A DNA stretch of 64,000 bases from NCBI RefSeq assembly GCF_003854935.1, contig NZ_CP033969.1:2666001-2730000 (forward strand), read 5' to 3'. Below, piece by piece: positions 12,479 to 50,174 of this stretch. The position numbers and the translations under genes are program-made. Below the pieces are notes generated by a model. That model made no database searches. It was not told the DNA's origin and saw only the letters and a list, made by a program, of their open reading frames with translations. Each line of letters starts with the position of its first letter. Position 1 is the first letter of the stretch. The stretch comes from Cupriavidus pauculus. GTDB lineage: Bacteria; Pseudomonadota; Gammaproteobacteria; Burkholderiales; Burkholderiaceae.

Positions 12479-12602
12479 ATCGGGTCAGATGTTATCTTCA
12501 GCCGGAATGACGGCCGTCTGCCATCCATTGTAACGATTGGTAGTCGAAAGCAGTTCCCGTCGTTGGAGGGTTCCCGAAGACGGATCGACATCCCTGGTGA
12601 GG

Positions 12603-13220: not shown

Positions 13221-13356
13221 GGAATTGCTGATCAATGAGGTTTGCGCTTGATGTTGCACAAGCCAAGGACTTCAGCTTTCGCAATCCGGGAGAGATGGGC
13301 CGATTCAAGCCGTCTTTCTCGCGTTTCGCACCTTTCCTGGTCGCGCTTTTGCGCGC

Positions 13357-27535: not shown

Positions 27536-27555
27536 CGTGATTCGCCGTAGTGGAT

Positions 27556-28872: not shown

Positions 28873-28906
28873 GGAAATATCTCCGAGGGCGATTGGTGGC
28901 TAATGT

Positions 28907-28921
28907 TAGGTAGCCTACCTA
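28907..28921. promoter_or_regulatory. Operator palindrome TAGGTAG-C-CTACCTA (site 1)
   Basis: Perfect 7+1+7 palindrome upstream of P450 copy 1. The same sequence occurs at 47788-47802 (P450 copy 2) and, with a central G on this strand, at 48701-48715 (transporter). This arrangement suggests one repressor, possibly of the MarR or TetR type, controlling all three. Confidence 0.75.
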
Positions 28922-28978
28922 TGTGGCGCAAAGGGGGGTTTACCCTCAACAACAGAATCGAAGGTCGACCCGTAGACA

Positions 28979-29341
28979 TCAGAAGAAAGCGGAGAACCCA
29001 TATGTGGCGATATGCCCGCCGACGTTGGAGTGCTTGCCCGCCCGCAACACCATCGCCATGGCATTCCAGCGCGCCATGGCGGCCAGTCGGCGCTCGATCG
29101 AGGTGTCGCCTGGAGGCTGCTCGCCCGATTCGGCAATCGTATTGACGTAGGGCGTCGTGATTGCGCCATGGAAATCCCCGTGTCGGGCCGCGTCCGATTC
29201 ATGCAGGCGGCCGATCAGGTAGTGGGCGCGTTCGCGGCCTTCCACTTCGGTCACGGCGGCCAGGGCCTCAATCCATTCCTGGGTTTCCTGCGGGTCCACA
29301 TCCAGCGGCAATACGTGTAGCGGCAACACCGGGGCATTCAT
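28979..29341 (-). pseudogene. Pyruvate dehydrogenase E1 (AceE), N-terminal fragment
   Basis: The ATG at 29341 has GGAG six bases upstream. It begins ~115 residues like the start of homodimeric pyruvate dehydrogenase E1: DVDPQETQEWIEALAAV, ERAHYLIGRLHESD, TTPYVNTI, ERRLAAMARWNAMAMVLRA and GGHIATYG. The normal protein has almost 900 residues. Homology ends near 28995, next to the P450 promoter, and the frame stops at 28979. The enzyme cannot be made, but the gene keeps its divergent MarR neighbour and operator. Confidence 0.75.
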
Positions 29342-29421
29342 CTCTGTCTCCATGGGATTGACGGGGCTTCGGTTCGCATCAGGCCCGGTCGGATAGGCGT
29401 GGCCATTGCGCTTCAAATAAA

Positions 29422-29478
29422 TTGCAGTTGCAATCGTCTGGGCATTGTGAGCGCTCTGCGGCATAATTGCAACTGCAA
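29422..29478. promoter_or_regulatory. Paired MarR-type operator sites
   Basis: TTGCAGTTGCAAT (29422-29434) and its exact reverse complement ATTGCAACTGCAA (29466-29478) flank the short spacer between the AceE fragment and the MarR gene. Each is itself nearly palindromic. They are likely binding sites for the MarR regulator acting on both directions. Confidence 0.6.
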
Positions 29479-29492
29479 CTATTGGAGATACC

Positions 29493-29936
29493 ATGTCGAC
29501 TGAGAAGCCGGATTTGTGGTTTTCGTTTGTACGGTCGCACCGGGCCTTGATACGTGAGGTGGATCGGCGTCTTGCCGAGGCTGGACTGCCTGTCTACGCG
29601 TGGTACGACGTGCTGTGGGGGATTGAAAGCGGGCCGGAGGAAAGCCGCCGGATGCATGAGCTGGCCGATGTGCTTGCCATCGAGCGGTACAACCTGACTC
29701 GCCTGATTGACCGGCTGGAGCGTGAAGAGCTGGTGACCCGTATCCGGTCAGAGGAAGACGGCCGCGCCGCGTTCGTGTCCGTCACACGGCAAGGTAAGGC
29801 CTTGCGCAAGAAGATGTGGGGCATCTACGAGGCGGCGGTCAAAGAACTGTTTCTGGCCGAGTTCCGGCCGGAAGACATCGGGCGATTTTCTCGTGCGCTG
29901 GATGCGGCGGCAGCCAAAGCGGGGTGGCCGAAATAG
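29493..29936 (+). CDS. MarR-family transcriptional regulator
   Basis: 147 residues. The winged HTH core is visible (MHELADVLAIERYNLTRLID RLEREELVTRIRSEEDGRA), with flanking helices for dimerisation. The ATG at 29493 follows GGAG by six bases. It is divergent from an aceE-like gene now cut short, and the two share a promoter with a paired 13-base inverted repeat. It may now act only on itself. Confidence 0.88.
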   Translation: MSTEKPDLWFSFVRSHRALIREVDRRLAEAGLPVYAWYDVLWGIESGPEESRRMHELADVLAIERYNLTRLIDRLEREELVTRIRSEEDGRAAFVSVTRQGKALRKKMWGIYEAAVKELFLAEFRPEDIGRFSRALDAAAAKAGWPK

Positions 29937-30293
29937 GTTCGAACTCCCTTTTCGTGCGGTGACGCTTCTGGCTCGCGCCGGAGGGGACGAATGTGTCCGC
30001 TTTTTGGGACACGTTCGACTTAGTTGGCAACGGCGGTACCCTGACGCCTCAATCAAAGGTCAGTGGCATGACCGGCGCTTACCGGCCCACCCTAAGCGGA
30101 CATCAGGATGGAGCAGAGACTGATATCCATTAGGCGCCCCGCATGACTGAAGAATTCCCTCAGAACGTTGTCTGCAACGCTTCATTTAATAGCTGGACAA
30201 CGTATGCTTCGACCGCTTTGTGCCCGGTGAGGGCCTAGCTAGAGCGACGGCTGAGTTCCGTCCGTAGCGACAAAACGTAGTTTGGCTCACCAA
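29937..30293. other. Intergenic region with an orphan inverted repeat
   Basis: No gene found. GTGTCC (29993-29998) and GGACAC (30007-30012) form an inverted repeat around GCTTTTTG. The pairing extends outward to an 11-bp stem if one G-T pair is allowed. It could be the MarR gene's terminator or a regulator site left without its gene. Confidence 0.45.
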
Positions 30294-31313
30294 CTATTGG
30301 GGCGGCGCCGTACTTTCGCGAACTACAAGGTCAGGCTCGAACTCGGTCTGAATGCGTTTGGACCCGCCTTCAATCTGATCAACCAGGTTACGAGAAGTAA
30401 GTTCGCCAATCAGAACGGGATTCGAGTGTACGGTCGTGAGTGCGGGCGTCATCAGTTCCGCCATCTGCCAGTCGCCGAAGCCTGTAACTGAGATGTCGCT
30501 CGGAACCGATAGTCCCAATGTGCGGCACTCCGCGATCGCTGCCACAGCAACGAAGTCATTGATGCATATCAGGGCAGTCGGCTGTTCCTGATGCGGCAGC
30601 GAGTCATTACGCTCGAGACAGGTCCGAACCGCTTGCCGGACGGCAGATGCTTCGTACGGTGTCGGGAGAATGCGGTCGTCGGGTATCGAAATGCCGTTCT
30701 CACTGAGGACGTCTTGGATGCCCAGAAGTCGTTGAGAGGAGAGAAATTGAGTCTCTAGTGGCCCTGGGAGGACGGCAAACTTTCGATGTCCCTGTTTGAC
30801 CAAATAGCTCGTCAACCTGCGCATCGCCAAGCGATTGTCATATCCCACCGTGGGATGCATACCCTCACGATCGACGGCCCACATTAGGACATACGGAATG
30901 GCATGCTTGTGGATTAGCGAGAAGACGTCAGGGTGATGCTGTGACCCGATAATGGCGATTCCGTCGACTCTGCGCTCCAAAAGCGCGCGCGCGCAGCGTA
31001 GTTCTGTCTCACTGTCGTCCCGGTGGCACGTCAATAAAACGGTGTATCCGAGCCGATCGAGCTGCGCCTCTAAGGTATCGACCGCTTTCGCGTAAAGCTC
31101 GTTCATCAGTGTCGGCGCAATGATGCCGACCGATCGCGTGCGCCCTTGACGCAGGTCCCGAGCCGAGGAAGACGGGACGTAGTTGAGGCTTGCGATGGCG
31201 TTCTGCACGCGCTCCAGCGTGTCAGGTCGCAGCCGATCCGGCGATGTCAGTGCACGGGAGACTGTTGCCGAGGAAACGCCGGCGAGGAGGGCGACTTGCT
31301 TGACATTCACCAT
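30294..31313 (-). CDS. LacI-family transcriptional regulator, copy 2
   Basis: 339 residues, nearly identical to the regulator at 11456-12478, with the same HTH (VKQVALLAGVSSATVSRALT) and sensor domain. It is the last gene of the minus-strand series FAD oxidase, CoA-transferase, Bug and LacI, so it is probably autoregulated. A LacI-type palindrome (GGTAATCGATTACA) lies directly upstream of the first gene of that series, and a second lies 89 bases further. The likely inducer is the substrate of the operon or its CoA or hydroxy-acid product. Confidence 0.92.
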   Translation of the reverse strand: MVNVKQVALLAGVSSATVSRALTSPDRLRPDTLERVQNAIASLNYVPSSSARDLRQGRTRSVGIIAPTLMNELYAKAVDTLEAQLDRLGYTVLLTCHRDDSETELRCARALLERRVDGIAIIGSQHHPDVFSLIHKHAIPYVLMWAVDREGMHPTVGYDNRLAMRRLTSYLVKQGHRKFAVLPGPLETQFLSSQRLLGIQDVLSENGISIPDDRILPTPYEASAVRQAVRTCLERNDSLPHQEQPTALICINDFVAVAAIAECRTLGLSVPSDISVTGFGDWQMAELMTPALTTVHSNPVLIGELTSRNLVDQIEGGSKRIQTEFEPDLVVRESTAPPQ

Positions 31314-31442
31314 ATCGGATCAGCGGTTATCTTCAGCCTGGGATATCGGCCGACTGCCGTCATTGTAACGACCTTGGTAGTCCACAGGCAGTTTCCGTCG
31401 TCGGGGGGTATCCCGACGACGGACCGGCATTCCCGGTGAGGG

Positions 31443-32429
31443 CTAGTCGAGCCGGACCTTTGCTGAATCAGCCACGCGCTTCCATTTCGTAACTTCGGTG
31501 CGCAGAAACGCATCGAATGCTTCCGGGGTGCCGCCTGCGATCTGCGCGCCTTGAGCCATCAGCTTGTCGCGGACCTCCGGATCCTGAAGGGCTTTGTTGA
31601 ACTGGCTGTTCATCTTAGCAACGATGGCTGGTGAGGTCCCGGTCGGCACCATAAATCCACCCCAAGAAACGGCTTCGTATCCGCTTATCCCGAGCGCTTC
31701 ATCTACCGTCGGCACATCGGGCAGTGCCGGCAATCGAGTCTTGCTCGTGACCGCAAGAGCCCTGAGTTTTCCACTCTTGACATGTGGCATTCCAGCAAGC
31801 GCGGTGGGAAGGGCAACATTGATCTGCTGACCGAGCACGTCTGTGAGCGAAGGCGCGTCTCCCTTATAGGGAACGTGGTTCATCTTGACGCCAGCCATGG
31901 TACTAAGGAGTTCCCCGGCCAGATGGCTGCCCGAACCGTTGCCTGCAGATCCAAAGGTAATCTGTCCTGGCTTGGCCTTTGCTAATGAGACCAGTTGGCG
32001 CAGGTCCTTCACCGGCGAATTTGCTGCCGTGACGATAATGAGCGGCACCTTTGTCACCAAGACAACTGGCGTAAAGTCTTTCAGCGTGTCATAAGGAAGT
32101 CTCCCGTATACGGCCGGGTTGATGGCATTCGGCCCAAGGTTGGCCATCAGCACGGTGTAGCCGTCAGGCTGCGCCTTCGCAACGGCTTCATTAGCGATGA
32201 TGCCGTTTGCGCCAGGCCGGTTCTCCACAACAACAGACTCTCCCCATGCCTGGCTAAGCTTAGCGCTTAGGAGCCTGGCGGTCACGTCTGAGGCGCCGCC
32301 AGGGGGATATGGAAGAACGACCCGAATCGGCTGGACCGGCCATTCCTTAGCGTGGGCGGCGGCCAGACCGATGGTCAGTGTCACTCCGCAAACGGCTAAT
32401 GCCCCCGCAATTCGTAGCAATCGATGCAT
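31443..32429 (-). CDS. Bug-type TTT periplasmic solute-binding protein
   Basis: 328 residues with a signal peptide (cleavage near AHAKEWP) and Bug motifs: [48 protein letters not shown] and LPDVPTVDEALG. It is the complete version of the truncated gene at 12603-13220. It lies 58 bases after the CoA-transferase and 129 bases before the LacI gene. It likely captures the acid used by this operon. Conserved upstream motif CAAAGGAGACAGACATG gives the start. Confidence 0.92.
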   Translation of the reverse strand: MHRLLRIAGALAVCGVTLTIGLAAAHAKEWPVQPIRVVLPYPPGGASDVTARLLSAKLSQAWGESVVVENRPGANGIIANEAVAKAQPDGYTVLMANLGPNAINPAVYGRLPYDTLKDFTPVVLVTKVPLIIVTAANSPVKDLRQLVSLAKAKPGQITFGSAGNGSGSHLAGELLSTMAGVKMNHVPYKGDAPSLTDVLGQQINVALPTALAGMPHVKSGKLRALAVTSKTRLPALPDVPTVDEALGISGYEAVSWGGFMVPTGTSPAIVAKMNSQFNKALQDPEVRDKLMAQGAQIAGGTPEAFDAFLRTEVTKWKRVADSAKVRLD

Positions 32430-32487
32430 GTCTGTCTCCTTTGAACGTGATCTTTATGGTGATCACTGTGGTCGGGCGGATTACACG

Positions 32488-33711
32488 TCAGATCGTCCCA
32501 TCGCGGCGCATTGCCTCAATTTGCTCCACAGACTTCCCGAGCTCATTTTTCAGGATGGTTTCAGTGTGTTCGCCCAGCGCTGGGGGCGCGCGAAGGTAGT
32601 CGATACTGCTGCGAGAGAACTTGATAGGGTTCGCAACCTGGGGCGCGCTTGCACCGCTGCTGTGGGGCAAAGAGAAAACCATTTCACGCGCCCGGATATG
32701 GGGATCCTCCAGTGCTTCTGGAATGCTCTGGATCGGGCCACAAGGTACGCCGACCGATTCCAGCAGTTTGAGCCACGTGTCTCTCTCTTCTTCTTCAAAG
32801 CGAGCCGAGAGCACCTCCACAAGACTTTCACGGTTCTTTAGACGATCCGCATTGCGTCGATAGCGGTCATCATCCGGAAGATTGATTAAACCCAGCGCTT
32901 CGCACATGGCTCGGAACTGCCGGTCATTACCGACTGCTACGATCAGAGAGCCATCGCTTGCAGGGAATGACTGATAAGGTGCGAGATTGGGGTGCGCGTT
33001 GCCCCAACGACGCGGGTGGCTCCCGCCCACCAAATAGTTCGAGGCCTGGTTTGCCAGCCACGCCACCTGCGTATCCAGCAGGCTCATATCGATGTACTGC
33101 CCGCGGCCACTGCCGACTCGCTCAAATAGCGCGCTGACAATTGCAACGCTTGCATACATGCCAGTCATCAAGTCCGATATGGGCACCCCGCATTTTTGCG
33201 GGCCGCCACCGGGGACGCCGTCGCGCTCGCCTGTGATGCTCATCAGCCCGCCCATGGCTTGCACCACGAAATCGTATCCAGCCCGCTTGCGGTATGGGCC
33301 CGTCTGCCCGAAGCCGGTGATGGAGCAGTAGACGAGCCGAGGATTGATCTCACTCAGGGTCTTGAAGTCCAACCCGTAACGTTGCATATCGCCGAACTTG
33401 TAGTTCTCAACGAAGACGTCGCAATCTTTGACTAGCTCGTGCAGCAAATCCTGACCGACCTTGCTGCTGACATCCAGAGTGATCGAACGCTTCCCGCGAT
33501 TGGCGCAAAGGAAGTACGCCGACTCTTCCGTCGTCGTGCCATCCTCACGAGTAAGGAACGGCGGGCCCCAAGCTCGCGTGTCATCGCCGGTGCCGGGACG
33601 CTCAACCTTCATCACGTCAGCGCCCAGGTCGGACAATAGTTGCGTGCTCCAGGGTCCAGCAAGGATCCGGCTCAAGTCTAGGACCTTGATACCTGCAAGG
33701 GGGCCTGCCAT
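32488..33711 (-). CDS. Class III (CaiB/BaiF) CoA-transferase
   Basis: 407 residues. The start IKVLDLSRILAGPWSTQLLS DLGADVMKVE and the catalytic-aspartate segment RAGYDFVVQAMGGL are typical. It activates a carboxylic acid by CoA transfer, with formyl-, succinyl- or acetyl-CoA-type donors known in the family. It lies between an FAD-dependent oxidase and a Bug binding protein in a LacI-controlled series. Thus it may act on a 2-hydroxy or 2-oxo acid or its product, which is inference. Confidence 0.9.
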   Translation of the reverse strand: MAGPLAGIKVLDLSRILAGPWSTQLLSDLGADVMKVERPGTGDDTRAWGPPFLTREDGTTTEESAYFLCANRGKRSITLDVSSKVGQDLLHELVKDCDVFVENYKFGDMQRYGLDFKTLSEINPRLVYCSITGFGQTGPYRKRAGYDFVVQAMGGLMSITGERDGVPGGGPQKCGVPISDLMTGMYASVAIVSALFERVGSGRGQYIDMSLLDTQVAWLANQASNYLVGGSHPRRWGNAHPNLAPYQSFPASDGSLIVAVGNDRQFRAMCEALGLINLPDDDRYRRNADRLKNRESLVEVLSARFEEEERDTWLKLLESVGVPCGPIQSIPEALEDPHIRAREMVFSLPHSSGASAPQVANPIKFSRSSIDYLRAPPALGEHTETILKNELGKSVEQIEAMRRDGTI

Positions 33712-33745
33712 ATCTCCTACTCCTCTTTTTTGAGTTTCTAACTAA

Positions 33746-35350
33746 TTAGCTCGGGTCGAACAGCACGCCAGGGTTCAAGACCTGGTGCGGATCAAAGGCC
33801 TGCTTGGCGGCCTTTAGCGCGGTGCAGAACAGCTCCGGCCGTTCCTTGTCGTACCAAGGGCGATGGTCCCGACCAAGCGCATGGTGGTGGGTCACCGTAC
33901 CGCCTGCGTCCACCATGGCTTGCTCTCCAATGCGTTTGATCGCTTGGAACTGCTCGGGCAATCGAGCCTTATCGCCATAGGCAAACCACGTGAAATATGG
34001 CGCAGGGCCATCAGGGTAGAGGTGGGTAAAGCGGCAAGTCACCGAACCCGGGCGGCCGGTAACTTCGCGAATGGCCCGATGCGTTTCTGCCTTGACGTGC
34101 GCGTGAAGAGCGGCGAACTTGTCCCACGTGCACGCGGTTTCCATGGTCTCGCGCATGACGCCGCGAGCAATGGCGTACTCGCGCAGGTATGGGCCGCGCA
34201 GGAACTTGTTTCGCCAGCTCGATGTCGCAGCGTCCGCACCACCTTGGTTTCCGCTGACCGGATCATCGTCCCATTCGCCGCCGCACTCCGCGCAAATTTC
34301 CAGTGCTCGCTTCAGGCGTGCCTCGACCGGGTGGTCGGCGGACTCGAATCCCAGCACGAGAATGTCATAGCTGCCGTCGCTCGAACCCGTGTACAAGGCT
34401 TCTTCGCGTTCCACAAGGCGGGCATTGGCAGGGTTCAGTCCAGATTGAGACAGTACCCGTGTGGCCTCGACAGCGCGCGCATAGTCACGGAAACGTACGG
34501 TCACCTGCTTGCGGAAGACCGGCCGGCGGTGAAGCTTGACCCACGCCTCGGTAATGATGCCCAGTGCGCCTTCGGAGCCGAGGAAAAGTCGATCCGGATT
34601 GGGTCCCGAACCCGATACCGGGAAACGTCGGGATTCAATGGCACCCTGGGGCGTTACCACTCGCATGCTCTCGACGTGGTCGTCGATCTGAGTGAACGCG
34701 GTCGCAAAGTGGCCTGCTGCTCGCGTTGCGATCCAACCCCCCAGTGACGAGAACTCCCACGCTTGCAGGAAGAATCGCATGGTCAGGCCGGTGGGCTTGA
34801 GCTGTCGTTCCAGCTCCGGGCCAAGGACGCCCGCTTGAATGCGCGCGGCCTGCGATGTTTGGTCTACCTCCAGCACTTTGTTGAAGTGCTTCATGTCGAT
34901 GGACACCACGCCACGGTAACGATCGTGCTCGGGCGGATTCACGCCGGCCACGACGCTGGTGCCGCCGCCGTACGGAACTGCAGCAACGTTCTGGCGCCCG
35001 CACCAGTCGAACAGGTCCACGATGTCCTGCTCAGTGCGCGGGTAGGCGATGACGTCCGGCGGGTTGGAAAATTCCCGGCGCATTGCGCGCGCAACATCCA
35101 TGGTGCCCGCGCCGTAGGTGTGATACAGGCGGTCGTAATGATCGCTTGTGCAGATTTCGCGAAGCGACGCGGGCAGCTGTACGCGAGGTTTGCGCAGCGA
35201 AATTTCTTCGGGCGTCGGAAAAGGTGTCGCTTCGAAGTGCTCGACACCCAGCAAGCGTGTCCACGCTGCCTCGAACTCCCGGATTTCGTCCGGCGTGACG
35301 GTGTCACCCTCATAGCCCCACCCGTAAAACTTACGACGACGTTCCTGCAT
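33746..35350 (-). CDS. AGPS-like FAD-dependent oxidase/dehydrogenase
   Basis: 534 residues from the ATG at 35350, which has GGAGG seven bases upstream; the frame is open further up only through the promoter. The VAO/PCMH-type FAD fold is visible (PYGGGTSVVAG, FLGSEGALGIITEAW). The C-terminal GGTVTHHHALGRDH with three consecutive histidines is typical of alkylglycerone-phosphate synthase-like enzymes. Bacterial members often oxidise 2-hydroxy acids. It is the first gene of a minus-strand operon with a LacI-type operator 21 bases upstream of its ATG. Confidence 0.85.
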   Translation of the reverse strand: MQERRRKFYGWGYEGDTVTPDEIREFEAAWTRLLGVEHFEATPFPTPEEISLRKPRVQLPASLREICTSDHYDRLYHTYGAGTMDVARAMRREFSNPPDVIAYPRTEQDIVDLFDWCGRQNVAAVPYGGGTSVVAGVNPPEHDRYRGVVSIDMKHFNKVLEVDQTSQAARIQAGVLGPELERQLKPTGLTMRFFLQAWEFSSLGGWIATRAAGHFATAFTQIDDHVESMRVVTPQGAIESRRFPVSGSGPNPDRLFLGSEGALGIITEAWVKLHRRPVFRKQVTVRFRDYARAVEATRVLSQSGLNPANARLVEREEALYTGSSDGSYDILVLGFESADHPVEARLKRALEICAECGGEWDDDPVSGNQGGADAATSSWRNKFLRGPYLREYAIARGVMRETMETACTWDKFAALHAHVKAETHRAIREVTGRPGSVTCRFTHLYPDGPAPYFTWFAYGDKARLPEQFQAIKRIGEQAMVDAGGTVTHHHALGRDHRPWYDKERPELFCTALKAAKQAFDPHQVLNPGVLFDPS

Positions 35351-35370
35351 TGTTGCCTCCTGTGTGATGT

Positions 35371-35384
35371 GGTAATCGATTACA
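35371..35384. promoter_or_regulatory. LacI-type operator GGTAATCGATTACA (site 1)
   Basis: Contains the 12-base palindrome GTAATCGATTAC, 21 bases upstream of the FAD oxidase start. This is a position where a LacI-family protein would block transcription. The regulator encoded at the end of the same operon is the natural candidate. Confidence 0.7.
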
Positions 35385-35459
35385 TACGTTACGGTAACCT
35401 GCATCAGAGACTGTAAATAACCAATGCCAGTACGGTGATGAGGCGAAAACAGCACTGCG

Positions 35460-35473
35460 TGCAATCGATTACA
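35460..35473. promoter_or_regulatory. LacI-type operator TGCAATCGATTACA (site 2)
   Basis: Second copy, 89 bases from site 1. It is identical to the 14-base site at 48572-48585 upstream of the transporter. The ~89-base spacing (about eight and a half turns) could allow looping by a tetrameric repressor. Confidence 0.65.
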
Positions 35474-35484
35474 TAAGTTTAGAT

Positions 35485-35822
35485 TGGTGCGGCATAATGT
35501 CAAGCAGTTAACGCAGTCGCGGCCATGGGTTGGAGCAGGAGTCGACGAAGAGATCGGATCGCTAAGAGACCTTCCCGCGGCGAGGTCACTGTGGGTTGGA
35601 GAGCGACTTACTTGGTGGTCTTCCCTTGCAGGGCGTCACGTACGTCCTTGCCTGAGGACCCAGTGAGTCGATCCTGAGCAAGCAATCTGGGGGCGCTTGC
35701 TCGTTGCAGCGTTGGCATGGTGCTCGAGCGACAGAGCAGCAAGAAGTGTGGCCGCTCCCTAGGCCTCAAGCGATGACATGCGGCATATCCGCCCTGGGTA
35801 GCCCACCAAACGGAGAGAAGAT
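35485..35822. other. Intergenic region without a gene
   Basis: No protein or RNA gene is supported. It should hold the promoter of the LysR gene; GGAGAGAAGAT directly precedes that gene's ATG at 35823. Confidence 0.4.
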
Positions 35823-36704
35823 ATGGCCCTGCAACACATCCCGCCCATTCAATGTCTTGTCACCTTCGAGACGGTTGCAAGGCTTCGGAGCGCCACACGT
35901 GCCGCCGACGAGTTGTGTGTAACAACCAGCGCCGTGAGTCATCGAATCCGCCAGCTTGAATCTCACCTCGGTGTTGAACTCTTCGGGCGGAGTGACTTCA
36001 CGCTTTCTGCACATGGTGCAGCGTACCTGGCGAATGTCCGAAGCGGCCTCGCTGCGCTACAGCAGATGCCGGTCAAAAATGGAAAAGCCTCTTCCACGCG
36101 ACTGCGGGTCGCGGTGACCCCAACTTTCTCCAGGCAGTTCCTGATGCCCAAACTGGAACTGTTCCGCAACAAGTATCCGGACATCGACCTTATCTTGCAG
36201 GTCTCCATCCCATTCCTGGACGTCACAGCCGAGCCATCCGATTTGGAAATCCGGTACGGCGCCGGCGGATATGCGGACGTCGATCATCGCGTCGTTCTCT
36301 CGGAGGAGGTGGCGCCGGCTTGCAGCCCTACCTATCTCAACGAGTTCGGCCCCTTCGAAGGCTTCGAAATGGCGGGTGAAATCGACCAGGCGCGTCTGAT
36401 ACGTAGCCCGCTTGAGCCTTGGACGACATGGTTCTCCTCATGTGGATTGACGAGAACGGAGCCGCATGTGGGCGCTCAATTCAACGATCTAGGGCTTCTC
36501 TATGACGCAGCCGCGTGCGGGTTCGGCGTGGCACTAGTGAGGACCCGTATGGCGCAGTCATGGCTAGAGGGGGGGCGACTCATCCGCATATCGGATCGAT
36601 CCGTGCCTTCACCGATGGCGCACTACTTATGCTGGGAACCTGGGGCCCTGGAGAGATGGGAGTGCGCCGCCTTTATGGAGTGGCTCACCGACTCGCTAAG
36701 TTGA
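35823..36704 (+). CDS. LysR-family (GcvA-like) transcriptional regulator
   Basis: 293 residues. Starts PPIQCLVTFETVARLRSATRA ADELCVTTSAVSHRIRQLE, the GcvA-subgroup HTH, followed by a short effector domain (LEIRYGAGGY). GGAG lies seven bases before the ATG. It precedes glcDEF by ~330 bases on the same strand and diverges from the FAD oxidase operon. Either could be its target; glcDEF is the closer functional guess. Confidence 0.85.
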   Translation: MALQHIPPIQCLVTFETVARLRSATRAADELCVTTSAVSHRIRQLESHLGVELFGRSDFTLSAHGAAYLANVRSGLAALQQMPVKNGKASSTRLRVAVTPTFSRQFLMPKLELFRNKYPDIDLILQVSIPFLDVTAEPSDLEIRYGAGGYADVDHRVVLSEEVAPACSPTYLNEFGPFEGFEMAGEIDQARLIRSPLEPWTTWFSSCGLTRTEPHVGAQFNDLGLLYDAAACGFGVALVRTRMAQSWLEGGRLIRISDRSVPSPMAHYLCWEPGALERWECAAFMEWLTDSLS

Positions 36705-37036
36705 GCGGCCCAAACACGGCAATCAAGTTTTCTGCAACTCAACCGCAAATAACTCTCAACCTGCTATATCGCGTGATTGTCTACAGTCAAGTCATGGCGT
36801 CTCGTCGACGCCTTTGACAGAAGTGTATTAGAACCTCCCCACACAATGCATCGCATTCATCGCTCAACGTTTGAGCCTCAGCGCCCGGAAGCAACGCTCC
36901 GCCTTGGAGCTGCAGCATCCGTCCAGGCTGATTGCGCGGTTCGCCGGCTCGCTACGGTCGCGCCGTCGCTCCGCACTGATTATCCAATAGACCGGCACAG
37001 CACGACGCAGCTTCATCGCACCAGGAGGGCAAAGTC
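36705..37036. other. Intergenic region before glcD
   Basis: No gene supported. The last bases, CAGGAGGGCAAAGTC, are a strong ribosome site for glcD. No clear operator palindrome is seen. Confidence 0.4.
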
Positions 37037-38548: not shown

Positions 38549-38549
38549 A

Positions 38550-39623: not shown

Positions 39624-39633
39624 GGGGCTCCAT

Positions 39634-40893: not shown

Positions 40894-41020
40894 CGGCAGG
40901 GCAAGAAACGGCGTCGAAGTCGGCACGGGCTGCGAGAGCGGCCCATGCAGTAGTGTTTCGCCTCCTGCAAGTAACGCGGTCGGCGAAAAGTTAGTCACAT
41001 CAAGATAAGAGGAGCATTTT

Positions 41021-41545
41021 GTGGCGATCTATCGAATTGGAGAGAAAGAACCGACAATTCATCCGAGCTCGTATGTATCCGAGCATGCGGTAATCATCGG
41101 CGACGTGGAAATCGCCGAAGACGTGTCCATCTGGCCCGGCGCTGTGATCCGCGGCGACAATGAAAAGATCACGATTAGGCGAGGCGTGAACGTCCAGGAG
41201 GGGGCTGTGTTGCACACCGATCCTGGCTTTCCCGTCGAGGTAGGCGAGATGGTCTCCATTGGACACCAGGCGATGCTTCACGGTTGCAAGGTCGGAGCAC
41301 GTAGTCTGGTCGGCATTCAGGCTGTGATCCTGAATGGATCCGAACTCGGACAACAATGCCTCGTGGGGGCCGGATCCTTGATCGGCGAGCGCAAGAACTT
41401 CCCGGCAGGAGGCTTGGTCATGGGCACACCTGCAAAGCAGGTACGTGAACTAACGGAGGAAGTCAAAGCTGCGATCGAGAAGAACGCTGACGACTACATT
41501 AACAAGGCGAAGACGTACAAGAAGGACCTGGTCAAGCTGAGTTAG
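41021..41545 (+). CDS. Gamma-carbonic anhydrase-like (PaaY/CaiE type) hexapeptide protein
   Basis: 174 residues. A left-handed beta-helix is built from hexapeptide repeats (VIIGDVEIAEDVSIWPGAVI RGD through LVGAGSLIGE). Histidines at LHTDPG and IGHQAMLHGC are the zinc ligands of the family. The start is GTG at 41021, with AGAGGAG eight bases before it. Members near CoA pathways (PaaY, CaiE) can act as thioesterases or as carbonic anhydrases. The context with CoA-transferases favours a CoA-related role, which is inference. Confidence 0.85.
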   Translation: MAIYRIGEKEPTIHPSSYVSEHAVIIGDVEIAEDVSIWPGAVIRGDNEKITIRRGVNVQEGAVLHTDPGFPVEVGEMVSIGHQAMLHGCKVGARSLVGIQAVILNGSELGQQCLVGAGSLIGERKNFPAGGLVMGTPAKQVRELTEEVKAAIEKNADDYINKAKTYKKDLVKLS

Positions 41546-41851
41546 CAAGCTCCGCGCGTCGGCGGATCAAGCGTCGACGCCTTGAGACGAGAGCGCCAGC
41601 CAGCGCCTCGTCTCGTCATCCCTCTCCATCAAGATTGGTGCTCCGGCCATCGCGAACGAACGCGACAAGGCCCGGCCTTGAGTTGCTACCCGGCCACAGG
41701 CACAGAACCCCTTCACGCGCCGCCGCTGTCTGCGTGGTCGCTACCCTCACCAGTCGGACCATATCGACTCGGTGCCTCCAGGTACTTCGCGCGATCATTC
41801 TTCACTGAATCGTTATATCATCTGCTCAGTGATTGCCCCCTTTTTGTAGAC
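41546..41851. other. Intergenic region upstream of MarR gene
   Basis: No gene seen. The following MarR reading frame is open through most of this stretch, but codon content and the lack of a ribosome site argue against an N-terminal extension. Confidence 0.4.
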
Positions 41852-42298
41852 ATGACAGAACCTACGGTTGAAATGCTTGCGGACGAACTTAGACCCCGCT
41901 TGATGCGGATCGTTGTAGCGCTGCGGCGGGAAATGAGAGCGGCGCACGTGCCCCCCGCGCAGAGCGCTGTTCTTAGTGCATTGCTCGTAAGAGGGCCGAT
42001 GCGAGTTAGCGATCTGGCCAGGAATGAAGGCGTCAGATTGCCTACGATGACGCAGATTGTCGGGCGGATGGTCGACGCCGAGTTAATCGCGCGCTCCGCA
42101 CCCGTCGGCTCGTACAACAACATGATTCAGATTACTGATGAAGGCCGGGCTGTGGCCGGCAAATTGGCCGCACAGCGGACGGCGGCACTGGGCAAGCGCA
42201 TGGAGGGATTGACGCCCGAGGAGTTGCAGACGGTGATCGCGATGTTCCCCATCATCGATAAGATGTTCAAAAGAGAACCGTGGCTGGACCACGAGTAA
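41852..42298 (+). CDS. MarR-family transcriptional regulator
   Basis: 148 residues from the ATG at 41852. The winged HTH is readable: MRVSDLARNEGVRLPTMTQI VGRMVDAELIARSAPVGSYN. MarR proteins bind 15-20 base palindromes and are released by aromatic or lipophilic acids. This gene lies beside the P450-2 cassette, and the three identical TAGGTAG palindromes nearby are of MarR size, so this is a candidate repressor of that regulon. A TetR protein elsewhere in the genome is an alternative. It is followed by a terminator. Confidence 0.88.
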   Translation: MTEPTVEMLADELRPRLMRIVVALRREMRAAHVPPAQSAVLSALLVRGPMRVSDLARNEGVRLPTMTQIVGRMVDAELIARSAPVGSYNNMIQITDEGRAVAGKLAAQRTAALGKRMEGLTPEELQTVIAMFPIIDKMFKREPWLDHE

Positions 42299-42466
42299 TA
42301 CCAACGAAATCTTCCTGGAAGACGACACGATTCGAGAAGGCTTATCGCTAGCCGGCCGCGCTTGCGCTGCAACTGCGGAGCCATGCAGGGAGTTGTCAGA
42401 GTCGCCGAGAGCAACCGCATCGCCCAATATGGGGCGCACTGCCGCGACCTATACGCTAATAAAAAA

Positions 42467-42491
42467 GGCGCCTAACACTCACTTAGGCGCC
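42467..42491. terminator. Bidirectional intrinsic terminator
   Basis: GGCGCCTAA (42467-42475) and TTAGGCGCC (42483-42491) form a 9-bp stem with a 7-base loop. A run of six A precedes it and AAAA follows. It lies between the converging MarR gene and aldehyde dehydrogenase gene and can stop transcription from both. Confidence 0.85.
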
Positions 42492-42555
42492 AAAACCTGA
42501 CTGGGAACGTAGCTTCGGGGGAAAGGGCGACGTATCGCCCTTTGCGGCCCCCGAT

Positions 42556-43983
42556 CTACACTTGAGTTACAAATTTCGTGACGAGATAGCCGTCGAACGT
42601 CTCGGTCCCACCCTCACTCCCGATACCGCTATCTTTAATGCCTCCAAACGGTGTTTCGGCGAGAGCGCTTCCAAAGTGGTTGATGTTGACCATGCCGGCC
42701 TCAAGGCGGGTAGAGACAGCATGCGCTGTCTTCGCTGACTCGGTAAACACGTAAGACGACAGGCCGTAAGTCAGTTTGTTCGCCCGTGCCAGCACCTCAT
42801 CCAGATCGTCGAACGCTACAACCGGGGCGACAGGGCCGAATGGCTCGCAAGTCATGAGCATGGAGTCGTCTGAAATGTCTATAACGACGCTGGGCGCGAA
42901 GAAATGTCCTGTGTCGCTGCACCTGGTCCCTCCCACGACAACCTTTCCGCCGCGCGCTTTGGAGTCGGCAATCAACCCTTCCATTGCAGCAACACGGCGT
43001 TGGTTTGCGAGCGGTCCCATCTGTGTCGAGCTGTCTATACCGTTGCCGACCCGCACTGCGCCAATGACGTCCGTAAAACGCCTGAGGAACCTATCGTAAG
43101 CCCCGCGCTGGACGAAGAAGCGGGAGGGCGAGACGCATACCTGACCAGCGTTTCGCAGCTTGTAGTTTGCAAGCATCTCGGCGGCGGTATGGACATCCGC
43201 ATCGTCGAAGACGATTGCAGGGGAGTGACCACCAAGCTCCATAGTGATTCGCTTCATATGGGATCCTGCTAGAGCTGCTAGTTGTTTGCCAACAGCAGTG
43301 GACCCCGTAAAGGAGATCTTCTGGACCAGCGGAGATGCAATGAGGTGTGCTGACACCTCCGCCGGGACGCCAAATACAATGTTTAAGCAACCAGGAGGAA
43401 GGCCCGCATCATGGAACAGTTGAGCGATCGCCAGCACGGCACTCGGTGTCTCTTCTGGTCCCTTCAGAATGATCGTACAGCCTGCGCCAAGCGCGGCAGA
43501 GATTTTCCGGATCGCCTGATTGAAGGGAAAATTCCAAGGGGTGAAGGCTGCGCAGACTCCGACCGGCTGACGTAGCACGAGCTGGCGGACGTTAGGGTTG
43601 CGGCTGGGGATCACGCGGCCGTAGATCCGCCGAGCCTCTTCTGCATGCCAGTCCGCATGCTCTGCACAAACCGTTACTTCGCCCACGGCTTCGTGCAGAG
43701 GCTTCCCCTGGTCAATGGTCATGTTGCGGCCGATTTCCGGCGCCCTTTGACGGGCGAGCTCCGCAACTTTACGCAAGATTGCACTGCGTTCCAAAGGCGA
43801 TGAGTCGCGCCACGTCAGGAAAGCTCGATGAGCCGCCTCGACGGCGGTGTCGAGGTCCTCGCGGGTGGCGAGCGGCAGTCGCCCAACGACCTCCTCCGTC
43901 GCAGGATTGACTACGTCCTGGTGTCGCCGGCCTTCAATGCCGAGAAATTCGCCATTGATGTAAAGGGATAATTCTGGATACAC
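42556..43983 (-). CDS. NAD(P)-dependent aldehyde dehydrogenase
   Basis: 475 residues, resembling the succinate-semialdehyde dehydrogenase branch. [28 protein letters not shown], the base region [10 protein letters not shown] and the cysteine loop [15 protein letters not shown] are all present. It is the most downstream gene of the minus-strand series P450, ferredoxin, reductase, Bug and aldehyde dehydrogenase. It would oxidise an aldehyde formed after P450 hydroxylation or dealkylation. The actual substrate is unknown. Confidence 0.9.
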
Positions 43984-44045
43984 AGCGTGTACTCCAATGA
44001 CTAAGAGGTTAGCTACGAAATTCTGTGCTTGTGACGGAGGTCGAT

Positions 44046-45014
44046 CTATTCGAGCTTAAAATCACCGACCTTAATTACTGCATCAATGCTCTTCTTGCGC
44101 TGCTTAAGGTAGCCCTCGAAATCCTCCGGGGACTGCGTAATGACTTCCATTCCAGTGCCTTGCATCCGCGTGCGAAGCTCGCCGTTCTTCAAAATCGTAG
44201 CGACATCGCTCTGCATTTTTTTGATTGCGTTCTGGGGCATCTTGGCAGGCGCATACAGGGCGATGGTTCCCGTAAGCTGGACGTCAATCCCCGCTTCCTT
44301 GAATGTAGGGACGTTTGGCAGCATAGGCGAGCGTTCTGGCGTCGACACGGCAAAGGCCTTCACTTTTCCAGCCTTAACGAGTTGCGCGATCGGTGCCATA
44401 TCGATCATGAGCATATCGATCTCGCCTGAAACGATAGCGGGGACACTTTGCCCAGCACTCTTGTAGCCGACTGGGGTCATCTTTACCCCGGTCTTTTGCG
44501 CGAACTCCTCCATACCGACACGCATGCCCAAGTTGGCCCATCCGTACGTGAACTTCCCGTTGGCCGCACGAGCTGCCTTAATGAGGTCAGCGAGGTTGTT
44601 GTATGGCGCGGAAGCCGGGGTCACCACAACGAGTGGGGTTGCGGCTAGCCCGCTCACAAGGGTGAGTTCCTTGGTGGGATCGACAGCAACAGTGGGGCGC
44701 AAGTTTGCGTCGATGATCAACGTGGACGGGGGCATGACCAGAAGGATCGAACCGTCCGGTTCAGCTCGCGCGACAGCCTTGCTGGCGATCGCCCCGTTTG
44801 CGCCTGGCCGATTTTCGACGATTACGGGCCGATTCCAGATTTTTGCCAGCTCTTCGCCAACTGCGCGTGCAACTACGTCGGTGCCACCGCCCGGTCCGTA
44901 GCCAACAAAGAGCCGGACCGGCAACGGGCCAGATTGCTGGGCGTACAGGATGGAGGGCAGGGCCAGGGAGCAGAGTAGGACTGCTCTGCGGATAGCCGAA
45001 GCGGGTTTTGTCAT
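44046..45014 (-). CDS. Bug-type TTT periplasmic solute-binding protein
   Basis: 322 residues, with a signal peptide ending near YAQQSGP. Family motifs include [33 protein letters not shown] and [14 protein letters not shown]. It lies 31 bases downstream of the reductase gene in the P450 cassette and probably binds the cassette's substrate or a related acid in the periplasm. It is distinct in sequence from the other Bug proteins in the window. AAGAGGAGACAAC precedes the ATG. Confidence 0.9.
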
Positions 45015-45045
45015 GTTGTCTCCTCTTTTATTATGAAATACAGCC

Positions 45046-46242
45046 TTAACCTGCTACCGCAGCTGGAGCGTGGCTCTTCGTCCACTCCTCCTTCAACAGC
45101 TTGATGTGCTCACGCGCTTTTCTACTGGCGTTCCAACTAAGAACGCCCATCAAAACGTCTCCCTGGTAGTAGCGAAAGATGCAGGAGTCGTCTTTCAGTT
45201 GATCCCCTTCGACAACTTCAACGGTGTATTGAGGGCCGATGCGTCCGTAGCTGTGGATTTGGACCTGGTACTGATCCGACCAGAAGAACGGCAGCGGAGC
45301 GTATTCAACGCGAGAGCCGAGCATGTTCTTTGCCGCGGCCATCGCCTGTTCGCTTGCATTCGTCCGGTGTTCAATACGCATGTGCTCGCCGTAGCCTTTG
45401 TGAAACCACTCTGCAGCATCGCCGGCGGCATATACGTTCGGGGCTGCTTCACAGTATTCATTGCAGACTACGCCGCTGCGGATGTTTAATCCGCTGCACC
45501 ACTGCACGCTGGGAACTGCGCCGATAGCCACAACAATTACGTCGCAAGCAATCACAACCCCAGTGTCCAAGCGGACTTCGGTAATGGTGCGGTCACGCCA
45601 TTTCACCTCCCTGAGTTCGCAGTCGTTGTGGAAAACCACGCCGTTGGCTTCATGGAGTTTTTCGATCCGCTTCCCAACGATATCCCCGACTCGCGCCCCG
45701 AGAGGAACTTTCGACTTGTCGATGACGGTCACCTCACAGCCGCTGGTCTTTGCAATCGCCGCTAACTCTGTGCCGATGAAGCCCGCGCCGACTACTAGTG
45801 CCCGCTTTCCGGCAGTCAGATGTTCCCGAATCGCCAGCGCGTCGTTTAAGTTGCGCAGGCTGTAGCAGTTCGCCGCCTGGCTGAGGTTGGGAATCACTCG
45901 AGCGTCCGCGCCCGTGGCGATCAGCAAGCGATCATATTGAAGTGTGGAGCCGTTGCTGAGTTGCAGTGAACTGGCGTCCGTATCGAGGCCGGTGGCCGAT
46001 GTCCCGTCCAGGTAGTGCAGGTTCAGCGCCTTCATGCCGTCTTCGGACACAAGGTTGAGCGCCTCTACCGGACATTCTCCTGCCATCAGCCGCTTTGAAA
46101 GAGGAGGGCGGTCATAGGGCATGCCGCCTTCCTTTCCAATCAGCGTGAGCCGCCCTCCCCAGCCCTGTGCGCGCAGCGCTCGTGCTGCCGTGATGCCGGC
46201 GGCCGAGGCGCCGACAACGACGATGTGCTCGGGGGAGTTCAT
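45046..46242 (-). CDS. FAD/NAD(P)H-dependent ferredoxin reductase of the P450 system
   Basis: 398 residues from the ATG at 46242, which overlaps the ferredoxin stop (ATGA). FAD motif IVVVGASAAGITAARALRAQ, NAD(P) motif VVGAGFIGTELAA and the C-terminal YAAGDAAEW are intact, as in putidaredoxin-reductase-like proteins. It transfers electrons from NAD(P)H to the adjacent [3Fe-4S] ferredoxin. It is the only intact copy in the window; degenerate 5' ends lie at 17029 and 27150. It may therefore have to serve both P450 proteins. Confidence 0.92.
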   Translation of the reverse strand: MNSPEHIVVVGASAAGITAARALRAQGWGGRLTLIGKEGGMPYDRPPLSKRLMAGECPVEALNLVSEDGMKALNLHYLDGTSATGLDTDASSLQLSNGSTLQYDRLLIATGADARVIPNLSQAANCYSLRNLNDALAIREHLTAGKRALVVGAGFIGTELAAIAKTSGCEVTVIDKSKVPLGARVGDIVGKRIEKLHEANGVVFHNDCELREVKWRDRTITEVRLDTGVVIACDVIVVAIGAVPSVQWCSGLNIRSGVVCNEYCEAAPNVYAAGDAAEWFHKGYGEHMRIEHRTNASEQAMAAAKNMLGSRVEYAPLPFFWSDQYQVQIHSYGRIGPQYTVEVVEGDQLKDDSCIFRYYQGDVLMGVLSWNASRKAREHIKLLKEEWTKSHAPAAVAG

Positions 46243-46439
46243 CACTGATCCTCGTGAATCTCGATGGCGAGCGCTGGGCAGATGCCAGCCGCCAGGCGTG
46301 CTGATTCGAATTGGTCAGCCGACGGCTCTGCGTTCAAGAGAATGACGATGCCATTGTCCTTTTGGTCGAACAGATCCGGCGCGTTGACGACACATTGACC
46401 AGAACCGCAGCACTTTTCGGGGTAGATTGTGATTTTCAT
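46242..46439 (-). CDS. [3Fe-4S] ferredoxin of the P450 system
   Basis: 65 residues from the ATG at 46439. Cluster cysteines C10, C16 and C54 sit in KCCGSGQC and GICPALA, the pattern of P450-associated [3Fe-4S] ferredoxins. It carries electrons from the reductase encoded by the overlapping gene to the P450 encoded 23 bases upstream. The intact tail here shows what was lost in the frameshifted copy at 27314-27535. Confidence 0.93.
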   Translation of the reverse strand: MKITIYPEKCCGSGQCVVNAPDLFDQKDNGIVILLNAEPSADQFESARLAAGICPALAIEIHEDQ

Positions 46440-46462
46440 GATGCTTCTCATTTAAGTCGGGA

Positions 46463-47752
46463 TTACCAGCGAACAGGGAGTTCCTTGACGCCATACATGA
46501 GTGAATCGCCCTTGAACTCAAGGCTTTCCACGGGAACAGCAAGCTCGAGGTTCGGAAACCGCTCCAGCAAGGCGGTGAACATGATCTGCATTTCGAGCCG
46601 TGCGAGGGGTTGACCGATGCACTGATGCGGGCCGTATCCGAACGAGACCTGCGTCCTTGAATCTCGGCGAAGGTCGAACACATTCGGATCTTCAAATTTC
46701 GAGCTGTCGCGATTGGCCGAGACACTCAGCACTACAACGGGGTCGCCCGCCTGGATCATTTGTCCGTTCACGACAATGTCCTCGGTCGCGACACGACGCT
46801 TTCCTGAATGTGTGACATCCAGATAGCGCAGAATTTCTTCCACCGCATTTGGAACGAGGCTTGTGTCTTGTCGAAGCTCATTCCAGATATCCGGTCGTTG
46901 CAGGAGGAAAAGCACTCCCATTGCGGTCGTATTCGCCGTGGTCTCGTGGCCGGCAATCAGCAAGAGCCTTGCAAGGGAAACAACGTCCGTTTCGGTGATA
47001 TCGCCCTTTCGTACGTGATTGACGATGAGGCGGCTGAGGATATCTTCCCCGGGGTTCTCCGATCTCTTCGCCACCAGGCCCTTCAGGTACACCTCGCACA
47101 ACTCATGATTTGCGGCGATGGCCTCCTCAAGCGTCGCACTACTCGACGTCAGGACCATCGCCAGTTCCTGAAAGAAGTCATGGTCTTCGTACGGAACGCC
47201 AAGCAACTCTGAGATCGCCAATGCCGGCGTAGCCAACGTAAAGGCGCTAACCAGGTCGGAGGGTTGAGGCTTTGTTGCGAAGTCGTCCAGCAGCTTGTCT
47301 ACGATCGCCTGAATCCGCGGGCGAAGGGCCTCGATTTTGCGGATCGAGAATTCACCTGTCAGCATGCGCCGATGCTCTGCATGCTTGGGTGCATCCATGG
47401 TGATGAAGGTCCGGTTACTACCCCGGGCAACTTTCATTGCAGCACTGACAGTGGGATAGCCGGGATTCGTAATGTCAGAACTAAAGCGAGGGTCAGACAG
47501 GACCGAGCGGACGTCGTCATAGCGCGTAATCAGCCAGGCGATCTTTCCGTCCCAGAGCCTAGCTTGCCCCAAGCCGCTTCCTTGCTGCATCTGGAAGTAC
47601 ACCGGCGGCGGCGACAAAGGATCGACCCGTTCGGGCGGAAAGTCGGGGATGCCGCTGTCCCCGCCAGCGTGCATCGGACACGTGGACTGCGCAGGTGAGG
47701 CCGCGTGAAACGGGCAGCCAGTCGACTGCGTGGGGGTTTGGGGGGCGGTCAT
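46463..47752 (-). CDS. Cytochrome P450, copy 2
   Basis: 429 residues from the ATG at 47752, with GGAG nine bases upstream. The I-helix AGHETT, ExxR region VEEILRY and heme loop FGYGPHQCIGQ are intact. It is highly similar to copy 1 from the GIPDFPP segment onward; the first ~40 residues differ but again carry two CP motifs (GCPFHA, TCPMHA). It heads a cassette with its own ferredoxin, reductase, Bug and aldehyde dehydrogenase. The TAGGTAG palindrome lies 36 bases upstream of its start. It presumably hydroxylates or dealkylates the substrate imported by the neighbouring transporter. Confidence 0.93.
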   Translation of the reverse strand: MTAPQTPTQSTGCPFHAASPAQSTCPMHAGGDSGIPDFPPERVDPLSPPPVYFQMQQGSGLGQARLWDGKIAWLITRYDDVRSVLSDPRFSSDITNPGYPTVSAAMKVARGSNRTFITMDAPKHAEHRRMLTGEFSIRKIEALRPRIQAIVDKLLDDFATKPQPSDLVSAFTLATPALAISELLGVPYEDHDFFQELAMVLTSSSATLEEAIAANHELCEVYLKGLVAKRSENPGEDILSRLIVNHVRKGDITETDVVSLARLLLIAGHETTANTTAMGVLFLLQRPDIWNELRQDTSLVPNAVEEILRYLDVTHSGKRRVATEDIVVNGQMIQAGDPVVVLSVSANRDSSKFEDPNVFDLRRDSRTQVSFGYGPHQCIGQPLARLEMQIMFTALLERFPNLELAVPVESLEFKGDSLMYGVKELPVRW

Positions 47753-47787
47753 GAATATGTCTCCGATGGGAAATTGTGAGTACATAT

Positions 47788-47802
47788 TAGGTAGCCTACC
47801 TA
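47788..47802. promoter_or_regulatory. Operator palindrome TAGGTAG-C-CTACCTA (site 2)
   Basis: Identical 15-base palindrome to site 1 at nearly the same distance from the P450 start (36 versus 35 bases). The sequence just downstream of both differs, so the site has been conserved within otherwise diverged promoters. Confidence 0.78.
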
Positions 47803-48354
47803 CTATATGCAAAAGGGGTTTACCCTAATCGGTGCAGAGGATTGACCTCGCGTCACAAATCTCGAGCGGGACCAGGGGTGGGAGAGGAGGGCGTGGCTAG
47901 ACTGGGGGAGCCCAGTTGGCCTGAAGGCGGGCGACCGCCGATTTCAGTGGTCAAGATATGCCGCCGGTGACCCACTGGGTATGCGCGAGGACTGTTTGCC
48001 TTCTGGTTGTTATAGCTCGTCCCAGGGTAGATATGCGGTCCGGCCGGGCTGGCTGACGACAGAGGTCGGTACCGAGTGAGGCGCGGCCGGAGGCCCGCTT
48101 GGGACCTGCTGGAGGCCACCTTTGACGCCGGGACCTTCCGTAAGGTCGGGATCGCAGGGCTTCGGTTCTTACCTATGCATAGGCGTGAAAAAACACCCGC
48201 ATGGACGTGGGGTTAGAAGTGCGCGATCGCCACCACTCGCTGACCAAGGGGGCAGCCTCACGACGCGTTGTTAAAGAGGCGCGGGGGGACAGTGAAGCCG
48301 GTGCAAGAAGGCAAGCGAGAAAGCCGAAGCGACCTCGCTTTGGCAGCCTACAAA
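47803..48354. other. Intergenic region without a supported gene
   Basis: About 550 bases between the P450-2 promoter and the small gene at 48355. Open frames on both strands look like noise; no RNA gene or mobile end is recognised. Confidence 0.4.
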
Positions 48355-48471
48355 TCAAATAAATAGGCTCCAGCTCTCCCCTAACTCGGCACTGAGGTAC
48401 TCGAACATCGACATGAATCGAAAGCGCTCCCATTGATTGAACGCCTCGCGTACCGCTGCCATCAGTGACAT
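48355..48471 (-). CDS. Possible small protein of 38 residues
   Basis: ATG at 48471 with a strong GGAGG seven bases upstream. It encodes SLMAAVREAFNQWERFRFMS and then MFEYLSAELGESWSLFI, ending in TGA at 48355. The ribosome site is good, and a long amphipathic helix is plausible. There is no family match I know and the length is short, so it may be a remnant of a larger protein. Confidence 0.35.
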   Translation of the reverse strand: MSLMAAVREAFNQWERFRFMSMFEYLSAELGESWSLFI

Positions 48472-48571
48472 AGCTACCTCCGGGGTGATCGACTTTAGTT
48501 AGGGGGGGCACCGCAAGAAAAAAGCAGGTCTTTCAACACTCGTTCGCATCGGCGCATAGCCCATTCCACGA

Positions 48572-48585
48572 TGCAATCGATTACA
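48572..48585. promoter_or_regulatory. LacI-type operator TGCAATCGATTACA (site 3)
   Basis: Identical 14 bases to the site at 35460-35473. It lies ~215 bases before the transporter start and suggests that the LacI regulator of the FAD oxidase operon also controls the transporter and GMC oxidase genes. Confidence 0.65.
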
Positions 48586-48700
48586 TAGAGCGTAGGTCGC
48601 CACGATGGTCTGTCAAGATAAAGCGTAAAAGTGTCATTTGCGGCTCAAAATCAGCCACCTGACTTCGTTGATGGGAGGGTAAACGCCTATTTGATTGTAA

Positions 48701-48715
48701 TAGGTAGGCTACCTA
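48701..48715. promoter_or_regulatory. Operator palindrome TAGGTAG-G-CTACCTA (site 3)
   Basis: Same palindrome as upstream of the P450 genes (central base complementary, so identical on the other strand, including flanking ATT). It lies 73 bases upstream of the transporter ATG. Confidence 0.75.
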
Positions 48716-48787
48716 ATATTTACCACAAATAAGAGTAAGCGCGCTTCGGTTTTTCAAACATTGCTTATAGAAGTGGAGACAAAATCA

Positions 48788-50164: not shown

Positions 50165-50174
50165 TCTCCTGATT

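Follow-up and report, generated by a model that had tools for sequence, protein, structure and literature searches.

A palindromic operator shared by two cytochrome P450 promoters and a transporter promoter in a mobile gene cluster of Cupriavidus pauculus, and its most likely MarR-type regulator

Several described regulators of the MarR family offer a point of comparison for the locus analyzed here. The site of HucR from Deinococcus radiodurans, TAGGTAGACATCTAAGTA, contains the half site TAGGTAG, according to the available part of the article (PMC6694116). PenR and PntR are MarR-type proteins of Streptomyces pathways that include P450 genes, and PenR is reported to be an activator in the available part of PMC5487221. 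We analyzed a stretch of 64,000 nucleotides from Cupriavidus pauculus (contig NZ_CP033969.1, positions 2,666,001 to 2,730,000 of the forward strand; hereafter the window, whose own numbering is used throughout), in which the 15-base palindrome TAGGTAG-N-CTACCTA precedes two cytochrome P450 genes and a transporter gene. We regard this palindrome as a real, cluster-wide operator, most likely that of MarR2, a MarR-type protein encoded in the same island (41852-42298, plus strand; recognition helix VRLPTMTQIV).

The palindrome and its three promoters

The palindrome occurs as an exact match at three places in the window. Copy 1 (28907-28921, minus strand) is separated by 34 bases from the start codon of P450A (27556-28872, minus strand; Pfam p450), and copy 2 (47788-47802, minus strand) by 35 bases from that of P450B (46463-47752, minus strand), a protein 76% identical to P450A. 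Copy 3 (48701-48715, plus strand) lies 72 bases before an MHS-type MFS transporter gene (48788-50164, plus strand), whose start codon is also the one annotated on plasmid pRK1-1 (coordinate shift, 5924). The initial annotation had located all three copies correctly, and the distances it gave, 35, 36 and 73, are correct when counted to the first base of each start codon (28872, minus; 47752, minus; 48788, plus).

The palindrome is rare. The initial annotation had seen no further copies, and allowing up to 3 mismatches indeed adds a single place in the window (35795-35809, 3 mismatches), giving 4 places against a mean of 0.35 and a maximum of 3 in 100 shuffles. That additional stretch, TGGGTAGCCCACCAA, lies directly before the LysR gene at 35823. 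On the plus strand, the heptamers TAGGTAG and CTACCTA each occur four times in the window, three times within the palindromes. Across the whole genome (6,177,826 bases in 4 contigs), a search at up to 2 mismatches returned one place with a single mismatch in addition to the three exact copies, compared with 16 places for the same pattern written backwards; thus, the palindrome is rarer than base composition suggests. Such a genome-wide count had been proposed with the first description of the palindrome, and the many random copies that would speak against a regulon were not found. The single-mismatch place (C2:1242558 in G000; locus L004, 1501-1515) is on the same contig, just 5' of a chromosomal gene read as acylphosphatase. 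Among 398 genomes drawn from the phylum, exact copies were present in 3 (two island carriers and a genome of another family, G144), versus 8 for the backwards control.

The three promoters also share a layout around the palindrome. Read toward the gene, each has AGGGTAAACNCC, then 12 to 13 bases with TTTG near their start, the palindrome, and AYAT. The first of these elements is found as AGGGTAAACCCC at 28935-28946 (minus strand; 25 bases upstream of copy 1, start to start) and at 47815-47826 (minus strand; 24 bases upstream of copy 2), and as AGGGTAAACGCC at 48676-48687 (plus strand; 25 bases upstream of copy 3). The window has no other exact copy of AGGGTAAACNCC; once 2 mismatches are allowed, its frequency is at chance level (9 observed, 9.5 expected). 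A longer form, AGGGTAAACNCCNNTTTG, is found without mismatches at sites 1 and 3 only in the whole genome, site 2 being one base shorter. The fixed position of AGGGTAAACNCC, 24 to 25 bases upstream of each palindrome, marks it as possibly the site of a second regulator.

A pair of promoter boxes can be drawn in all three cases as TTGNNN, 17 bases, TAAYAT, with the palindrome ending the spacer and overlapping the second box. As read from the sequence, these weak, putative -35 and -10 boxes are TTGCGC and TAACAT around copy 1 (28903-28931, minus strand), TTGCAT and TAATAT around copy 2 (47784-47812, minus strand), and TTGATT and TAATAT around copy 3 (48691-48719, plus strand).

A recognition helix that accompanies the palindrome in other bacteria

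We scanned the species-genome collection for the palindrome together with AYAT and obtained 15 stretches, 11 of them from five island carriers and one each from Massilia, Dyella, an Algibacter metagenome-assembled genome and a Scytonema metagenome-assembled genome. The Algibacter match, inside a frame of 1198 codons, and the Scytonema match, before a gene read as fasciclin-like, were taken as chance. Likewise taken as chance were 38 viral stretches with the exact palindrome, in which tblastn (threshold, 1e-3) found no match to MarR2 or to the Massilia MarR protein.

In Massilia sp. Bi118, Dyella sp. C9 and G144, the palindrome is directly upstream of a MarR gene. The three encoded proteins have in common with MarR2 a recognition helix of the form R-x-P-T-x-[S/T] (RxPT in the following), which is not present in MarR1, the other MarR protein discussed below. 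Searches with the protein alone extended this association. In the family of G144, relatives were found in 6 of 116 genomes: G144 itself, four RxPT genes with a site of one mismatch, and one gene with an RTAT helix and a site of two mismatches. For the Dyella family, relatives were found in 10 of 127 genomes (Dyella included), all of them RxPT genes, nine with an exact site and one with a single mismatch. Together, 16 RxPT genes have the site just upstream, 11 exact and 5 with one mismatch. Since the palindrome itself had led to Massilia, Dyella and G144, independence from it can be claimed for the remaining 13 genes only, which are related to one another; all 13 found by protein alone have the site (8 exact, 5 with one mismatch). 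Counting every RxPT gene read outside the island, the site is present at 16 of 17.

MarR-like loci with other helices rarely have the site. None of 59 non-RxPT loci, a set that includes weak profile matches and so perhaps some genes that are not MarR genes, has it at up to 1 mismatch; one has it at 2 (the RTAT sister) and three more at 3. (One of the searches for relatives gave 32 matches, 30 of which were read as loci.) Across the 16 RxPT genes, 13 of the 15 palindrome columns are invariant, and the flanks vary except for a -10-like stretch just upstream. An MFS transporter gene directly follows the MarR gene in all 17 loci tested, the RTAT locus included. Variant palindromes with 3 mismatches precede the MarR genes of L068 (G434; helix TQPTMT), L067 (G380; RAQSMS) and L081 (G079; RPQSMG), a pattern that would fit a joint change of helix and operator.

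Literature searches for the palindrome and its core did not find a link to a MarR protein in print, as far as these searches reach. A TAGGTAG in PMC2791445 was set aside, being part of a primer for the meningococcal nadA promoter in the available part of that article.

MarR2 and competing explanations

MarR2 is a MarR protein by its match to PF01047 (35.1 bits; cut-off, 24.6), and its score against PF12802 is just below the cut-off (26.9 versus 27 bits). Its helix, RLPTMT, fits R-x-P-T-x-[S/T], keeping R62, P64, T65 and the S/T at position 67. Among the best 30 of 129 MarR_2-profile matches in its own genome, MarR2 alone has an RxPT helix, the helix that accompanies the palindrome elsewhere (16 of 17), and for this reason we favor it as the regulator. 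In a tree of 76 proteins, MarR2 falls within a wider clade that holds the 16 operator-bearing RxPT genes (support, 98/91). The initial annotation had proposed the MarR gene at 41852 as the nearest candidate; the candidate has gained support, and the word nearest applies instead to the MarR1 gene, 571 bases from site 1.

We therefore consider it likely, on the sequence comparisons above, that a MarR-type dimer uses the palindrome as its operator and that MarR2 binds all three copies, most likely repressing the genes behind them. The copies lie where the core promoters of P450A, of the P450B-ferredoxin-reductase-TctC-aldehyde dehydrogenase genes, and of the MHS-GMC genes are expected, and MarR2 bound there would thus block access of RNA polymerase. 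Some substrate or intermediate would release the protein, and its release would switch on uptake, P450 hydroxylation, and alcohol and aldehyde oxidation together. As for the earlier proposal of one repressor for both P450 genes and the MHS-GMC pair, the shared operator is well supported, while binding and repression by MarR2 are predicted.

Several observations weigh against MarR2 in this role. Its identity to the RxPT relatives compared is 28-32%. Its wing, PVGSYNNM, is without the arginine-rich (DRRR-like) stretch common to those relatives. Unlike the 16 genes above, its own gene has no site before it, the best upstream match having 6 mismatches (L198). Its best NCBIfam match, the Rv0880-type family NF052438, gives 47.1 of the 220 bits required, which makes it a non-member. 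In the tree, the order inside the wider clade is not settled, and MarR2 forms a long branch that is not placed inside the clade of the relatives. The rule linking helix and site has an exception in a Mycobacterium branderi plasmid gene (L115; RTPTTT, 35% identical to MarR2), which has no site: its best upstream match has 6 mismatches, and none within 4 mismatches occurs in 6.4 kb. L115 begins 31 bases after fadD4 and may be without a promoter of its own. None of the other eight MarR2 relatives read in the plasmid collection is RxPT, and one of the eight has a site with 2 mismatches. At the three promoters, a consensus scan reported no sigma-70-like boxes, these being too weak. Conservation of the sites among island carriers was rejected as evidence, as near-identical copies of the island say nothing on selection.

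The 2-mismatch site in the plasmid collection is on an Arthrobacter plasmid (L119, 2950-2976), where the helix is KVPSAT and a second, overlapping TAGG..CCTA-like stretch lies just upstream.

With about 30% identity, no wing arginines, no site of its own and no MFS gene following it (the next gene is a convergent aldehyde dehydrogenase gene, 42556-43983), MarR2 is not filed in the RxPT lineage. In DNA recognition it most likely behaves as the proteins of that lineage do.

MarR1 (29493-29936, plus strand), whose gene is the MarR gene closest to any site, could in principle regulate all three promoters. It clearly belongs to the MarR family, its gene is 571 bases from site 1 and travels with the island, and its wing looks normal (EEDGR). 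Its helix, however, is IERYNLT and not RxPT. Upstream of ten relatives (33-51% identical), even the best match to the palindrome has at least 5 mismatches; at the six plasmid-collection loci L056-L061, allowing 3 mismatches gave no match at any position; and the tree of 76 proteins places MarR1 with its own relatives in a different clade. MarR1 also adjoins a remnant of the N-terminal part of a pyruvate dehydrogenase E1 gene (28979-29494), and our own reading of a Burkholderia stagnalis locus (L057) found a similar remnant beside a MarR1 relative of 70% identity; the old partner of MarR1 therefore seems to be another gene. On helix, relatives and neighbors we rejected MarR1, and its control of the three promoters is very unlikely. 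A role for another regulator, either a host protein or one of the island's AraC-type (52679), LacI-type (11456, 30294), LysR-type (9952, 35823) or IclR-type (17280) regulators, is unlikely. All of these named genes lie in the window, the AraC-type gene is located after the MHS-GMC genes, and its product resembles regulators of oxidation pathways, scoring 222 of 250 bits for QhpR and 133 of 500 for CypR, both below the cut-off. The helix rule, moreover, is not strict, since at least one RxPT MarR gene is without the site. Nevertheless, the palindrome precedes 16 of 17 RxPT MarR genes and was not seen beside AraC, LacI, LysR or IclR genes in the loci read, although no search was aimed at those families. 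For a host regulator, one would expect further sites in the genome, where only the one single-mismatch place exists.

Two further explanations concern what the palindrome does. MarR2 could bind it and activate, with release by an end product, as with PenR and the pentalenolactone genes; PenR is a MarR-type protein reported as an activator (PMC5487221, in the part available), and a MarR gene of Streptomyces NBC_00557 near a pentalenolactone synthase gene is a tblastn relative of MarR2 (31.7%). The palindrome is, however, found where the spacer between the -35 and -10 boxes is expected, not upstream of it, and in the relatives it adjoins a -10-like box near the start codon, both of which suit a repressor; we consider activation quite improbable. 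The palindrome might also be a promoter part that was copied along with the genes and is read by no protein. P450A and P450B are duplicated genes (76% identical) with similar leaders, so sites 1 and 2 cannot be counted as independent and may be alike by duplication. Site 3, in contrast, keeps the full 15-mer despite different wider flanks, and it is likewise conserved upstream of MarR genes in other families, which leaves passive copying extremely improbable.

A more elaborate history can be proposed tentatively, and we hold it to be possible though rather doubtful: the island would have taken a MarR protein from a lineage that regulates itself plus a transporter and rewired it, with AGGGTAAACNCC binding a second protein (perhaps the AraC-type protein of the island, acting as activator) and the palindrome binding the MarR2 repressor. 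If this were so, the regulator would have lost its own operator and gained three copies in two-part promoters, and the regulon would be closed and silent towards the host, as the exact site is found nowhere else in the genome.

Gene content, mobility and relation to known systems

The window contains 149 open reading frames of at least 100 amino acids, and 40 of its stretches were given to Pfam. Regulators among these 40 comprise two LysR, two LacI, one IclR, two MarR and one AraC type; no TetR type was found among them. Downstream of site 2, genes with short gaps on one strand encode P450B, a ferredoxin (46242-46439, minus strand; coordinates carried over from pRK1-1), a ferredoxin reductase (45046-46245, minus strand), a TctC-type binding protein that is a probable member of the operon (44046-45014, minus strand), and the aldehyde dehydrogenase at 42556-43983 (minus strand), its probable end. 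Downstream of site 3, a GMC oxidoreductase gene (50157-51782, plus strand; start carried over from pRK1-1) overlaps the end of the MHS gene, whose best NCBIfam match is a metabolite/H+ symporter at 376 of 443 bits, below the cut-off. The closest sequences to P450B in the PDB are actinobacterial, e.g., P450-SU1/vitamin D3 dihydroxylase and CYP105Q4, which does not fix the substrate. The cluster probably breaks down some compound.

A ferredoxin gene 3' of P450A (27340-27560) is frameshifted and its counterpart after P450B is intact; P450A may borrow the ferredoxin of the P450B operon. Two LacI-TctC pairs (11456-13259 and 30294-32429) look like duplicates, pairing being by coordinates: 30301-32061 also matches, at 87.7%, the counterpart of the first pair in G001.

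All three sites are present in 10 of 61 genomes searched from the genus, the genome of the window included; with G144, which has one site, the number of genomes with a match rises to 11 of the 149 searched. The cluster is also found in Pandoraea terrigena and, in the plasmid collection, in C. basilensis pRK1-1, C. sp. P-10 and a 2.8-Mb C. campinensis replicon, at 99.8% DNA identity. Integrase genes flank the region on pRK1-1. The window parts compared are 99-100% identical to G001, G023 and G054, and proteins of the island copies are mostly 98-100% identical, the lowest value being 95% (the aldehyde dehydrogenase in Pandoraea and partial LacI stretches). These near-identical copies, found also in Pandoraea terrigena and on plasmids, mark a recently spread island. 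The P450B stretch had no match in phage records, and a literature search on the gene cluster listed no paper that appears to describe it.

A mobile catabolic island could in this way bring along both a regulator and sites that are absent from the host, and so switch its genes jointly without disturbing the host. The promoters are candidate inducible promoters, and the pairing of R-x-P-T-x-[S/T] with TAGGTAG-N-CTACCTA points to a link between helix and operator. A MarR repressor acting through a palindrome would be ordinary; of greater interest are the apparently rewired position of the sites, the link between helix and operator, and the second element of the promoters.

The comparison with other systems gives partial matches. 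We know of no published name for the RxPT MarR-MFS gene pairs of the Massilia and Dyella types, which have the same palindrome (11 of 16 exact, 5 of 16 with one mismatch) and the same R-x-P-T-x-[S/T] helix. They differ in that the site stands before marR itself, followed by the MFS gene, whereas here it stands before the P450 and importer genes and is absent before marR. Rv0880-type proteins provide the best NCBIfam match to MarR2, yet at a score well short of membership. PenR and PntR resemble MarR2 as MarR-type proteins of a pathway with P450 genes, and a gene of Streptomyces from such a context is distantly related to MarR2; they differ in serving Streptomyces biosynthesis and in the activation reported in the available part of PMC5487221. 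HucR, like MarR2, belongs to the MarR family, and its site, as given in the available part of PMC6694116, shares one identical half site with the palindrome described here. In the HucR site the half sites are imperfect and separated by 4 bases, whereas here they are perfect and separated by 1 base, and HucR senses uric acid, a link not seen at this locus.

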